Virus record (IMG/VR): IMGVR_UViG_3300048672_000193
Coordinates: 1 to 22,794 of that record
Length of the DNA: 22,794 nt
Strand: one strand, 5' to 3'
Origin: a virus
Below are positions 10,288-16,320 of this stretch, piece by piece (the first letter of the stretch is position 1; the number at the start of each line of letters is the position of its first letter). The notes under the pieces are model-generated. The model searched no databases and had not been told where the DNA came from. It was given only the letters and a program-made list of their open reading frames with translations. The position numbers and the translations under genes were made by a program.

Positions 10288-11040
10288 GTGGCAAAGGTAT
10301 TCCTAGCTGTACCTCAGTACAAAAAGCTTCATCCGACTGAGATTCAGAGGATCAAGCATGAACTGGAGATGGAAGATTATGAGTGCATCCTGGACGGTTT
10401 CCATCCCAAGTTCGATCATGCAGTCTCCGGCCTGATAGCGAACGAAAGACACGAGATTAGGTTCTCGTCTATCACCGGAGATGGCAACCTGCCAAGGGCT
10501 AGGGCTATTCATCTCGGGATGTGGCGGGAAGAATACGACACTCCTGATAGGTGCGATTATTTCATGATTGTGGATGATGATATCAGCTTCAATCCTGAAG
10601 CAATCGACATTCTGATAGGGGATGATAAGCCGATAGTAGGGGGGATCTATACTTTCAAGACTACAGATCCAGGTTACGTTGGCAAGGCTTGCACTCGATT
10701 CTTCAAAAGACAGGTCCTTAGTCCCAATGGACCTTTCGAGGTTCAATGGCTCAACGGTGGTTTTATCATGGTGAAGGCCGAAACCCTACTGAAGATGATA
10801 GATGCCTACCCGGAGTTAGTAATCGATGTTCCAAAGGAATCCTCGGGAAAGATAACAGCCAAGGAGACTTGGGCACTCTGGACTCCGCGAGTTTATCACG
10901 ACAATGGAGACAGACTTTTCTTAGGGGAGGACTGGTCTTTCTGCCAGAGAGCAAGAGAAATAGGATTCAATATTTATGCTGACCTGAGAGTAAAACTTGT
11001 TCATTGGTCGGCGGAGGACGGTTACGCGATTCATATCTAA
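10288..11040 (+). CDS. GT-A fold glycosyltransferase, 250 aa
   Basis: The GTG start has AAGGAG five bases upstream. The features of a nucleotide-sugar transferase are visible: GDGNLPRARAI (64-74), the metal-binding DxD as VDDDISF (95-101), WLNGGFIMVK (154-163, acceptor-side strand), and GEDWSFCQR (213-221), matching the catalytic ED of family-2-like enzymes, with H239 near the end. No signal peptide or membrane segment is seen, so it should act in the cytoplasm. It lies between cement and tail genes. Possible targets are a virion protein, phage DNA bases or a host sugar polymer. The enzyme class is fairly sure; the target is unknown. Confidence 0.85.
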   Translation: MAKVFLAVPQYKKLHPTEIQRIKHELEMEDYECILDGFHPKFDHAVSGLIANERHEIRFSSITGDGNLPRARAIHLGMWREEYDTPDRCDYFMIVDDDISFNPEAIDILIGDDKPIVGGIYTFKTTDPGYVGKACTRFFKRQVLSPNGPFEVQWLNGGFIMVKAETLLKMIDAYPELVIDVPKESSGKITAKETWALWTPRVYHDNGDRLFLGEDWSFCQRAREIGFNIYADLRVKLVHWSAEDGYAIHI

Positions 11041-11386: not shown

Positions 11387-12379
11387 ATGGCTTACTCGAT
11401 TCTAGGAATTGTAAACATGGCTTTAGGAAGGATTGGGGTAAAGAGAATAACTTCCTGGCCTGATGCTACAACATCTCAAGGTATAGCGGCTAACGCTGTT
11501 TGGGAGTTCATTCGCGATGAGGTACTTGAATCAAGAGACTGGCGGTTTGCTAAAACTAGGAGTGTGCTTGCTCAATATCCTCCTTTTGCTGATGTTGATT
11601 TTGGGGATAGTCGGCACCTCTATGTTGTGGGAATCCTTGATCAGGATGATGTAACCGACTTGTCAGTAAAAGTGCAGACAGCGGCGGATGATGTTCTCGC
11701 CGTTTCGGTTGATTCAGATACAACCATCCTCATAGAACTTGCCGATACAACTTCAACCAAGAATACAGCGGCATTGATTCAGGCAGCTATCCGCGCTTTG
11801 TCAACGGTAAATGGAATAGACGTCACAACATGGACTGCCGAGGAGAACGAAGAATATGTGGCAGATCGACCGACCTCTGGAATCGACCTGGACGCTGTCG
11901 ATATTTTAGATGGTCCGGTATCGGGATATCAGTACGCCTACAGGCTCCCTGATGAGTTTCTGAGAATAGCTCGAGGGCGTCCGGAAGACCTGTCTGTCTA
12001 TCCTTCAGGAGCCTATTCATCGAGCTACATCTCAGGGCAACTTGAGATTCGGGGAGTTCAATTCTCCTATATTGTCGAGAACTATGCAAACAATCTGAGA
12101 TGCCTTCTGACCGATTATTCAAACGAAAGTTATCCTCTAATCCTGACTTTCATCAAACGAGTGATAAACCCGACGACCTACACGGGGCACTTTGTCAGTG
12201 CCTTAGCTTTCAGGCTTGCAGCTGAATTAGCATGGCTTCAGACAGAGAGTGCTACCAAATACCAAACTATGATGAATCTCTATCAGGAAGCATTAAAAAG
12301 AGCGGACGGGCTGAATCAATCCTCCGATGAGGTTCAGGACGAACTTGGATCCGATCTGTGGGTGAACGCAGGACGATGA
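11387..12379 (+). CDS. Tail tubular protein A-like adaptor, 330 aa, with an inserted domain
   Basis: The N-terminus ILGIVNMALGRIGVKRITS and the WRFAKTRSVL strand (52-61) are hallmarks of T7 gp11-like tube proteins, which form the ring joining portal to nozzle. The rest of the family pattern resumes at YQYAYRLPDEFLRI (181-194) and ends with the helical FRLAAELAWLQTES region (275-288). Between the two (about 70-172) sits an extra beta-rich domain with LAVSVDSDTTILIELADT and a Thr/Asn-Thr-Ala helix (KNTAALIQAAI), the style of small domains in phage tail proteins. A core gp11 of about 200-230 residues plus this insert explains the length. GTGAGG lies upstream of the ATG. Confidence 0.85.
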   Translation: MAYSILGIVNMALGRIGVKRITSWPDATTSQGIAANAVWEFIRDEVLESRDWRFAKTRSVLAQYPPFADVDFGDSRHLYVVGILDQDDVTDLSVKVQTAADDVLAVSVDSDTTILIELADTTSTKNTAALIQAAIRALSTVNGIDVTTWTAEENEEYVADRPTSGIDLDAVDILDGPVSGYQYAYRLPDEFLRIARGRPEDLSVYPSGAYSSSYISGQLEIRGVQFSYIVENYANNLRCLLTDYSNESYPLILTFIKRVINPTTYTGHFVSALAFRLAAELAWLQTESATKYQTMMNLYQEALKRADGLNQSSDEVQDELGSDLWVNAGR

Positions 12380-12574: not shown

Positions 12575-15500
12575 ATGCCTAATGCTACTCCATTGATTTG
12601 TTCATTCAATTCGGGCGAGTTAAGTCCTCGCTTGGATTCTAGGGCTGACCTTCAGAAATACTTTTCCGGATGCCGTACTTTGGAAAACTTCATTCCGTTG
12701 GTCGAGGGTGGAGCAAAGAGGATGCCAGGAACTTACTTCGCACTTGAAACGAAAGACTCAACTAAGAAATCTAGGCTCATCCCATTCCAGTTTTCTACGG
12801 TTCAATCCTATGTCATTGAAGCAGGGGATCAATACTTTCGATTCTACAAAGAGGATGGTCAGATATCAACTCCGGATGCCTACACGAAAATTCTTCTTCA
12901 TTGCGATGATGACGACGAATCCACTGATTTTACAGATTCGTCTGCATCGCCTCATACCTTAACAGCTGAAGGAGATGCTCAGATTGATACCGCTCAGAAG
13001 GTTTTCGGTACATCTTCGGGTCTATTCGATGGGAATGGTGATTATGTTACTATCCCCGATCACGCAGACTTCAATTATTCAACCGGAACCCTGACATGGG
13101 ATACATGGATAAAGTTCAATGCTGTTGTTGGGATGCATGTTCTTTATATGCAGAAGGATACCACTTCGGGGGATCATATCCTTTTCTGGCAAGATCACTC
13201 TGAAGGGAAGATTCATTTTCAGGTCACGAATGGCGGGGCTGTTGTTATCAATGAATCAGCAGCGTGGGCTCCTTCCGCTTCAACTTGGTATCACCTTGCG
13301 CTCATCCGAGGGTGGGGCGGGGTAGCCAATGATTGGGCGATAACGATCAACGGAACGGAGATCCATACTTTTACGAACTCCGGAACCATGCCCGACCATG
13401 ATCAGGTGGTAACGCTCGGAGGGAATTTAGGAAATTACGCCATTGATTATATGGGTAGGCATCCTCTCATCACCGTAGCCAATGGCGCAAATAGATCGTC
13501 GTCAGAATCTAAATTCGGTTCAGGATCATGGCATTTTGATGGTTCGGATGACAATCTGAACATGCTGGACCACGCCGATTGGGATCTCACCAACACGACA
13601 AATTACACAATCAGTATATGGGTAAAACACACAGATCATGCTGGAACAGAATCCTATATCTCTCAGTATGTGGATGCCAATAACTTCTGGTGGCTAGGGC
13701 ATATCCACGGGTCTGGTATAACTTTTCAAATCCAAGTTGGAGGAGGAGCTGCGGAGGTTAACATAGCCGGAGGTGAGATAACAGACACAAACTGGCATTT
13801 CATCACCCTCTGTAAAGTCGGAACTAGTTATGGTGTCTATAAGGATGGTATTCAGGTTGCCTATGTTTCGTATGCTGGCACGGACACCTATGCGGGCGGA
13901 CTGTATATAACTGGCATCGCCGGTAATTTCGATGGCTACATGGAAGACATCTTTATCTCCCATGCAAACGCATTTTCAGCTTCCCCTGTTGTCGGACTAA
14001 CTGATGTTATCCCAGTTCCGACTTCTCCCCTTTCAGTTGACTCCAACACAAAACTCCTCATTCGGGGTGATGTTACCGACTTCAATGGGTGGATTGATGA
14101 AATAAGAATTTCAAAGGGAATTGCTAGGTGGACAGTTAATTTCACTTCTCCAACACAACCATACCCCTTCAAGGATTCTGTCTCTTTAACGGGTGGTGGA
14201 GGAACATCTTACGAGATAGTTACTCCGTACTTGGAAGCGGATATTTTTGAGCTTAAAGTGACTCAGAGTGCAGATACATTATACTTGGTTCATCCAAATT
14301 ATGAACCTAGAAAGTTGACAAGAACAGATCATACGGACTGGAGCCTAGATGTCATAAGTTTTACGGCATCTCCTTTCGGGGCAGGAGATTATCCAGGTGC
14401 GGTGGCATTCTTCGAGCAACGTCTATGTTTTGGAGGATCAGACGCTAATCCTCAGACCATCTGGTGTTCAGTTTCAGGCGACTATGAAAATATGACGACC
14501 GGGACGGACGATGATAGTGCAATCATCTACTCTCTTGTTTCTGATAAGGTAGACAGAATTAGATGGATGATAGGTCAGGACTATATGATGGTTGGAACAG
14601 TTGGTGGTGTCTGGAAGTTTGGTGCGACCAACACGGGGGATCCTCTTACCATTTCGAACGTATCAGCTAAAAAACAAATCAGCCTTGGTGTTAAAAACGT
14701 AGATTGTGAATCTGTTTCCGACGCTATTCTATGGGTATCCAGATCAGGACTCTCTTTAAGGCAGCTCACCTATTCCTGGGAAGCCGATAAGTACATAGCT
14801 CCTGATATGACCAGAATTGCAAAGCATATCGCATTAGGCGCAACCCTGGAAACATCCGGTATTGTGGATATGGATTTTCAATCTGAACCCCTACCCGTCA
14901 TATGGGCGGTACGGGCTGATGGTCAACTCCTCGGGATGACCTATGAAATTCAAGAGCAGATTTACGCATGGTTCAGGGTGGTGACGGATGGACAATTCGA
15001 GTCGGTAGCTTGCATTTCCTCAGAAAACAATGAAGACCAAATTTGGGTGATAGTTAATAGAAAAATCAACGGATCTGATGTCAGGTATGTCGAGTATTTT
15101 AAACCTATGGATTTCTATTCCAAACTCGAGGACTGTTTCTTTTTGCATTGCGGCTTGACCTGGGATGGAGGTTCTTCAATCAGTATCACAGGGATAACCA
15201 AAGCTAATCCTGCTGTAGTTACGGCGGCAGGGCATTCCTTTATCAATGGAGATAAGGTCAGGATTCAGGATGTCGAAGGAATGATCGAGGTTAACATTGG
15301 AACCGACACGGCTTACACAGTTGCAGCTTCAGACCCGGACGGAGGGACTTTTCAACTCTCAGGGATTGACTCGAGCTTATTTACTGCCTACTCCGATGGC
15401 GGGACGGTCCAGAAAGTGAAAAACTCGTTTGTCGATCTGACTCACCTCCAGGGCAAAGAAGTCCAAATCATGATAGACGGGGTTGTTCATGGCATCGAGA

Positions 15501-15871
15501 CTGTGACAGCCGGAGCGATCACCCTTGATTGGTATGGAAACAAGATCCACGTAGGCTTGCCCTTCACTTCCATCCTGGAACCGATGAAATTGAATGCCGG
15601 GAGTGCCCTTGGGACTGGCAGGAGTAAAAAGCAAAGGGTATCTAAAATTGAGGTTACACTTTTTGAATCCCTCGGTGGTCAGGCTGGACCTAGTCAAAAT
15701 GAACTCCTTGATTTGAATTATGACGGAGCAACGGATCTCTTCACCGGGGAAATCGAGTTTCAGATGGATTCGAATTGGGGTAATGAGGCCACCATTTCAA
15801 TCGTTCAAGATGACCCACTACCGATGACGGTTTTATCTATAGTTCCTCATCTTTCACTGGAGGAAGGTTGA
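12575..15871 (+). CDS. Tail nozzle protein (T7 gp12-like) with LamG-like domains, 1098 aa
   Basis: The N-terminus FNSGELSPRLDSRADLQKYF and NFIPLVEGGAKRMPGTYF is characteristic of podovirus tail tubular B / nozzle proteins. The matching later parts are FELKVTQSADTLYLVHPNY (558-576), PGAVAFFEQRLCFGG (607-621) and LQGKEVQIMIDGVV (958-971). Two LamG-like jellyrolls interrupt it. One has TKILLHC (104-110), LFDGNGDYVTIPDHADF and WYHLALIRG (238-246). The other starts near residue 294, with HFDGSDDNLNMLDHADW and a C-terminal FDGYMEDIFISH. A second N-strand (TKLLIRGD, 492-499) is joined straight to a second C-part (GWIDEIRISKGIARW, 505-519). A further beta insert lies at 865-948 (ITGITKANPAVVTAAGH). 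LamG folds commonly bind glycans, so surface binding is plausible. Confidence 0.85.
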   Translation: MPNATPLICSFNSGELSPRLDSRADLQKYFSGCRTLENFIPLVEGGAKRMPGTYFALETKDSTKKSRLIPFQFSTVQSYVIEAGDQYFRFYKEDGQISTPDAYTKILLHCDDDDESTDFTDSSASPHTLTAEGDAQIDTAQKVFGTSSGLFDGNGDYVTIPDHADFNYSTGTLTWDTWIKFNAVVGMHVLYMQKDTTSGDHILFWQDHSEGKIHFQVTNGGAVVINESAAWAPSASTWYHLALIRGWGGVANDWAITINGTEIHTFTNSGTMPDHDQVVTLGGNLGNYAIDYMGRHPLITVANGANRSSSESKFGSGSWHFDGSDDNLNMLDHADWDLTNTTNYTISIWVKHTDHAGTESYISQYVDANNFWWLGHIHGSGITFQIQVGGGAAEVNIAGGEITDTNWHFITLCKVGTSYGVYKDGIQVAYVSYAGTDTYAGGLYITGIAGNFDGYMEDIFISHANAFSASPVVGLTDVIPVPTSPLSVDSNTKLLIRGDVTDFNGWIDEIRISKGIARWTVNFTSPTQPYPFKDSVSLTGGGGTSYEIVTPYLEADIFELKVTQSADTLYLVHPNYEPRKLTRTDHTDWSLDVISFTASPFGAGDYPGAVAFFEQRLCFGGSDANPQTIWCSVSGDYENMTTGTDDDSAIIYSLVSDKVDRIRWMIGQDYMMVGTVGGVWKFGATNTGDPLTISNVSAKKQISLGVKNVDCESVSDAILWVSRSGLSLRQLTYSWEADKYIAPDMTRIAKHIALGATLETSGIVDMDFQSEPLPVIWAVRADGQLLGMTYEIQEQIYAWFRVVTDGQFESVACISSENNEDQIWVIVNRKINGSDVRYVEYFKPMDFYSKLEDCFFLHCGLTWDGGSSISITGITKANPAVVTAAGHSFINGDKVRIQDVEGMIEVNIGTDTAYTVAASDPDGGTFQLSGIDSSLFTAYSDGGTVQKVKNSFVDLTHLQGKEVQIMIDGVVHGIETVTAGAITLDWYGNKIHVGLPFTSILEPMKLNAGSALGTGRSKKQRVSKIEVTLFESLGGQAGPSQNELLDLNYDGATDLFTGEIEFQMDSNWGNEATISIVQDDPLPMTVLSIVPHLSLEEG

Positions 15872-16320
15872 TGTGCAAAGTCATCCCTTATGAGGCAGTC
15901 CATGCTTATATCATCCTGGAAAACAACGTCAGGGAATACGATCTTCAGCTTTCCAAGATTGCTGAGTGGGATATGTGGCCGAGTCGGTTTGCTCAGTCAG
16001 GGCCCGCATTCACACTCATTCATGAGGGAAAGGTGATAGGTTGTGGAGGAGTGGTCCTTCAGGACTGGAAACGTGGCGAAGCATGGATGTTGCTCGGAGC
16101 AGGATTCGAGAAGTTTACCCTGAGCCTTTGCAGGGCAGTCAAAGACAAACTAGCCGAGATTGTTAAAAAGCACAACCTAAAAAGGGTGCAGGCTACCGTC
16201 AACCCTACTCACACGGCAGGACAAAAGTTTCTACAGTTCTTCGGATTCCAGGAAGAGGGACTTTTGAGGCATTACGGGCCTGAAGGGTCGGACTATCTCA
16301 TGTATGCGAGGATCTACTAA
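15871..16320 (+). CDS. GNAT-fold protein at the T7 gp13 position, 149 aa
   Basis: The ATG at 15871 uses GGAGGAAGG and overlaps the preceding stop by one base; an in-frame TTG just before it is less likely. It shows a GNAT-like pattern: strand FTLIHEGKVIGCGGVVLQD (47-65), the central helix region, then strand RVQATVNPTHTAGQKFLQFF with GFQEEG (125-130) and YGPEGSDYLMYAR at the end. In T7-like phages the gene in this place encodes internal virion protein A (gp13). Proteins like this are often annotated as N-acetyltransferases. Whether it is enzymatic or structural cannot be said from sequence. Confidence 0.75.
   Translation: MCKVIPYEAVHAYIILENNVREYDLQLSKIAEWDMWPSRFAQSGPAFTLIHEGKVIGCGGVVLQDWKRGEAWMLLGAGFEKFTLSLCRAVKDKLAEIVKKHNLKRVQATVNPTHTAGQKFLQFFGFQEEGLLRHYGPEGSDYLMYARIY

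Follow-up and report, generated by a model that had tools for sequence, protein, structure and literature searches.

How the pieces of LamG domains fit together in a phage nozzle protein is the question raised by the window, the whole 22,794-nucleotide stretch of DNA that was analyzed here. It is a fragment of an uncultured podovirus in which the genes for terminase, portal, capsid, gatekeeper, and nozzle follow in the usual order. The nozzle was placed among T7-like nozzles by homology of its body to phrog_376 and by its position after the gatekeeper (tail tubular A), and a tblastn search with its open reading frame matched 343 phage records, the top ones being tail tubular B. A scan of viral contigs with the whole nozzle protein returned no match, and a PDB sequence search with the LamG region returned only matches at chance level. 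The protein is homologous along the whole nozzle body to T7 gp12-like nozzles (tail tubular B), including gp13 of Pelagibacter phage HTVC010P, which matches it at residues 8 to 97 and again from residue 546; residues ~101 to 540 are an insertion relative to HTVC010P. The two nozzles differ in this slot, which holds LamG1 and LamG2 in the window and a small FCCH-like domain in HTVC010P (residues 83 to 181), while the FCCH-like domain of the window nozzle lies at residues 849 to 948 (15119 to 15418). As the position of this domain indicates, the nozzle has interchangeable plug-in slots. Coordinates and carriers are collected in Table 1.

Table 1. Positions of the nozzle gene, its upstream neighbor and its LamG pieces in the window, and proteins that carry the nested layout
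Feature	Position	Strand	Basis or members
Upstream ORF, 5' of nozzle	11387-12379		phrog_394 tail protein
Nozzle (tail tubular B-like) protein, 1098 aa	12575..15871	+	phrog_376 tail protein, 9.4e-187
N1, first strand of host LamG1 (TKILL, res 104-108)	12884..12898	+	matrix, 33.0 bits; AF2 strand
Core1 of host LamG1 (res 109-282)	12899..13420	+	PF13385; collinear with L092 to res 282; host clade
Insert, permuted LamG2 (res 283-502)	13421..14080	+	missing from single-LamG nozzles; folds alone, pTM 0.90
Core2 of LamG2, without leading N-strand	13454..13927	+	matrix scan; PF13385 1.9e-9 on insert alone
C2, last canonical strand of LamG2 (FDGYMEDIFISH, res 452-463)	13928..13963	+	AF2 strand 453-462
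C2-N2 linker (HANAFSASPVVGLTDVIPVPTSPLSVDSN type)	13964..14047	+	motif also follows C in LamGs of the insert clade
N2, relocated first strand of LamG2 (TKLLIRGD, res 492-499)	14048..14071	+	matrix, 21.7 bits; strand 492-496 in full model and insert alone
C1, last strand and tail of host LamG1 (NGWIDEIRISKGIARWT, res 504-520)	14084..14134	+	AF2 strand 504-514; aligns with C of empty-site nozzles
Nested LamG in nozzles			window, L001, L037, L038, L091, L094, L166
Nested LamG in second tail-associated protein family			L020, L025, L088
Nested LamG in a 463-aa protein			L090

Two further genes of the window were noted. Between the capsid-region and tail genes, positions 10288 to 11040 encode a protein of phrog_1574, of unknown function and with a glycosyltransferase-like look (IVDDDISF), for which Pfam and PDB searches gave no match. 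Directly 3' of the nozzle, as in Pelagibacter phages, lies a GNAT acetyltransferase-like gene (15868 to 16320) that also has similarity to the internal virion protein phrog_308.

The earlier note had described an odd succession of LamG pieces in the nozzle, with TKILLHC at residue 104, a first core running to residue ~293, a second core directly after it, FDGYMEDIFISH at 452 to 463, TKLLIRGD at 492, and GWIDEIRISKGIARW at 505, and translation of the frame agrees, with core1 reaching residue ~282 to 293. The order is thus N1-core1-[core2-C2-N2]-C1, positions 13454 to 14074 corresponding to residues 294 to 500. The 1104-codon frame was scanned with a weight matrix trained on 25 N-strands from other LamGs; the 98th percentile of shuffle maxima was 5.6 bits. 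Only N1 and the strand at residue 492 were recovered, and no scoring site was present in the stretch before core2. Core2 is therefore truly without a leading strand of its own, a genuine N-strand coming only after C2. Pfam Laminin_G_3 (PF13385) matched both cores in two stretches (7.5e-20). Against a cut-off of 27.6 bits, the protein scored 72.1 with its best stretch at residues 152 to 286, which places LamG1 in the family, and residues 290 to 502 alone scored 38.3, which places LamG2 there as well. In a tandem LamG array each unit has the order N-core-C; the window nozzle does not.

Relatives without the insert exist, L092, L101, and L098 lacking it where the window, L166, and L094 carry it. 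The L092 nozzle has a single ordinary LamG and is without exactly residues 283 to 502 of the window protein: residues 7 to 282 align to L092 residues 34 to 308, and residues 503 to 875 to L092 residues 310 to 676. The comparison with one-LamG nozzles that had been proposed thus reveals a clean insertion. Between L166 (nested) and L101 (single), the flanks are 97% and 93% identical, C1 is 89% identical, and LamG1 is 51% identical; between L094 and L098 (with and without the insert), the corresponding values are 88% and 84%, 89%, and 54%. DNA similarity between L166 and L101 stops near codon 198 and is back at codon 523, immediately before C1. These breakpoints indicate that part of LamG1 and the insert were swapped as one block, the right edge of which is the N2/C1 junction. 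The host LamG of L094 has an additional small inserted domain at about residues 130 to 200; it separates N1 from core1 and occupies the loop where permuted LamGs are cut.

In a tree of 73 domains, host-type and insert-type cores fell in different parts. With six nested proteins available, their host cores formed one clade (100/98), apart from all insert cores, and a tree with more sequences grouped nine of ten nested hosts together (84/95). On this branching, the nested hosts could have had one origin. The inserts are not monophyletic and may go back either to one insertion followed by swapping or to several insertions. Among cores whose C-strand could be typed automatically, many further cores not being typable in this way, those of the host clade were followed by an ISKGIARW-type C in 51 cases and by an insert-type C in none; those of the insert clade were mostly followed by an H.N.F.A.P-type C (39, with 10 exceptions, several of which are low-scoring cores). 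Within nested proteins, the outer core and outer C are of the same kind, as are the inner core and inner C. L011 had been taken as a plain single-LamG nozzle and was dropped in favor of L092, L098, and L101; its single nozzle LamG (L011:3238-3879) joins an insert-clade core to a host-type C strand and is possibly a chimera or a collapsed nested form.

That the outer pieces match each other and the core clades differ argues against a collapsed tandem array, the alternative that the earlier note had offered. In that history, three ordinary N-core-C LamGs would have lost C1 plus N2 and the third core by two deletions. LamG tandems are indeed common in these phages (L004, L031, L054, and L065), and the linker before N2 is the one found between tandem units. 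However, both deletions would have to be precise, and they would have had to leave one host-type pair (core1 with the final C) and one insert-type pair (core2 with C2). A double deletion would not predict the empty-site pairs, whereas the one-LamG nozzles show a clean insertion at residues 283 to 502, and no three-domain nozzle intermediate was found. Moreover, the strand that it leaves over is needed by LamG2 in the predicted fold described below. We therefore disfavor the collapsed array and consider it improbable.

AlphaFold2 (AF2) prediction of nozzle residues 95 to 542 (448 aa) gave a model with pLDDT 89.6 and pTM 0.84 from a thin alignment of 21 rows, in which permuted relatives were included and from which single-LamG rows were kept out because MAFFT spread them wrongly over both domains. 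Strands were predicted at residues 104 to 108 (N1), 453 to 462 (C2), 492 to 496 (N2), and 504 to 514 (C1). When residues 290 to 502 were folded alone, with N1 and C1 absent, the model (pLDDT 91.7, pTM 0.90) was a ConA-like jellyroll in which residues 492 to 496 were still a strand; the partner of this strand must therefore lie within the inner domain. In the prediction, as the earlier note had proposed, the late N-strand completes the inner jellyroll, and residues 294 to 463 do not make a complete jellyroll without it. With the N motif missing before core2, present after C2, and forming a strand in the isolated insert model, LamG2 is, by prediction, a circularly permuted domain. The suggestion that the two domains share strands fared less well, as N2 forms in the insert alone and the full model has a separate C1 strand; strand sharing between LamG1 and LamG2 appears unlikely. 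Foldseek searches with the insert alone matched LamG/ConA-like domains (E about 1e-6), with perlecan LG3 at a TMt of 0.62. For closure of the host across the insert, the full model predicts C1 as a strand with confidence, and topology and the single-LamG relatives suggest that it would pair with N1.

It could also be supposed that N2 is a spare or linker strand in a hairpin with C1, which would leave LamG2 an incomplete jellyroll, and strands 492 to 496 and 504 to 514 are only 7 residues apart in the model. Yet N2 is still a confident strand without C1 and bears the canonical N-strand signature, and LamG1 already has a next-to-last strand of its own, so that we regard such a hairpin as very unlikely.

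The nested layout was found in 11 contigs and at least three carrier proteins. All 11 have nine residues from the KLL of N2 to the G of C1 (pattern [KRA]L[LY]-x9-G..(D/T)E); a pattern scan for the N2-C1 junction gave 7 matches, one of which was real (L020). The recurrence of the piece order in ten other contigs indicates that neither coincidence nor misassembly of the window contig produced it. The window is a fragment of an uncultured virus, but a reading-frame or assembly artifact of a metagenomic contig is a negligible prospect, as there is one open frame and its piece order is shared by those ten independent contigs and by three or more carrier proteins. The nested layout is a real, reusable way for phages to stack such domains. 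By eye, the insert of L088 looks like a different LamG type, so that inserts may be interchangeable. Permuted LamGs with the order core-C-N were also seen flanked by Ser-rich linkers (L002) and, with labels given by eye, in an apparently CBM-like context in L052 and in SPRY-like contexts in L013, L056, and L067. In the latter three and in L068, the final N-strand of the permuted LamG leads straight into the SPRY-like segment (TKLLIHSDFDGGLGADSSGN). Among phage isolates, tblastn of the insert plus C1 gave nine records with weak LamG or C-strand matches, in which no nested pair was recognized; the three isolate regions inspected (Rhizobium phages Y60 and Y5A and Pseudomonas ZC08) are single ordinary LamGs.

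The nozzle of L001 (2153 to 5176, protein residues 100 to 1106) contains an apparent four-level LamG nest and a CBM-like domain. Its pieces, all on a single contig, read N1 core1 [core2 C2 [core3 C3 [core4 C4 N4] N3] (CBM-like) N2] C1, and loop halves (HANSFSADPSSW ... DIITVPTGEHTADGD-TKLLMH; HADPYNIDPSKP ... DIYTVPTKPQ) stand on both sides of each deeper insert. By its sequence, L001 reads as recursive, with three permuted LamGs one within another. In L043 (5227 to 8451), a canonical LamG apparently lies within the C-N linker of a permuted LamG. We judge it evenly balanced whether the system as a whole is recursive, that is, whether loop-permuted LamG cassettes enter the loops of further domains, among them the C-N loops of permuted LamGs already in place, in the manner of Russian dolls.

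Several components of this arrangement are already known, namely, LamG itself, circular permutation in its fold class, nested insertion, and permuted inserts. Both window domains match LamG (PF13385), with its ConA-like jellyroll, by sequence, and the insert also does so by fold. The best PDB matches of the window pair were LamG pairs (laminin LG4-5 and neurexin LNS) whose domains are arranged differently overall; for LG4-5 the whole-model TM was only about 0.3. Known LG pairs are end-to-end tandems, whereas in the window one LamG is permuted and lies inside the other. Concanavalin A, in which the termini have moved inside the sandwich, is permuted after translation and stands alone; the window domain is of the same fold class, but it is permuted at the gene level and serves as an insertion cassette. 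The natural circular permutation of concanavalin A relative to favin has been reviewed (PMC3320104). Nested domain insertions of the form A1-B1-C-B2-A2 are catalogued in ECOD, with nesting to six levels; inserted domains may be permuted, and 65.8% of the catalogued insertions join different H-groups (PMC13114784). The window resembles these in that one domain interrupts another and differs in having a permuted LamG in a LamG, possibly recursively (L001), with inserts exchanged between virus relatives. No description of nested or permuted phage LamGs was found in the open-access literature (PMC text), and the use of such a nest, one LamG permuted within another and perhaps in several layers, as a mobile phage tail-protein module is apparently undescribed.

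Overall, we conclude that LamG2, with the order core-C-N and cut after its first strand, is very probably plugged into a loop of LamG1, each domain closing its own sandwich and the whole forming an exchangeable accessory module. The simplest reading of the earlier note, a circularly permuted LamG within another, is upheld by the insert fold, the empty-site nozzles, the C signatures, and the free-standing permuted LamGs. The LamG1 jellyroll would sit in the N-terminal insertion slot of the nozzle, and LamG2, opened at the loop that follows its first strand, would enter the loop between the next-to-last and last strands of LamG1. Such a cut would bring the ends of LamG2 close together, making the domain insertable into the loop of another without disturbing it. 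N1 would then close with C1, and N2 with C2, and the fixed nine-residue N2-C1 step probably sets the mutual pose of the two domains. Close relatives appear to gain or lose the pair by recombination with its right edge at the N2/C1 junction, and recombination within the conserved strand motifs may spread it. The fold and the tail-tip location suggest accessory surface or glycan binding as the likely function, in which the second jellyroll would offer a second binding face for glycans or other surface polymers in adsorption.

The usual view is that phage binding proteins grow longer through tandem repeats or by fusion end to end. In the nested layout, a fold famous for circular permutation has been opened at a point that brings its termini together and placed within a domain of the same fold. 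This occurs in several carrier proteins and possibly in multiple layers, and it illustrates how a domain can naturally become a unit that plugs into loops. Repeat-based annotation mis-orders nested permuted domains. Pairs with and without the insert among close relatives make its gain, loss, and effect on adsorption directly testable and, if the system is truly recursive, recombination would reshuffle LamG stacks between phage tail proteins.
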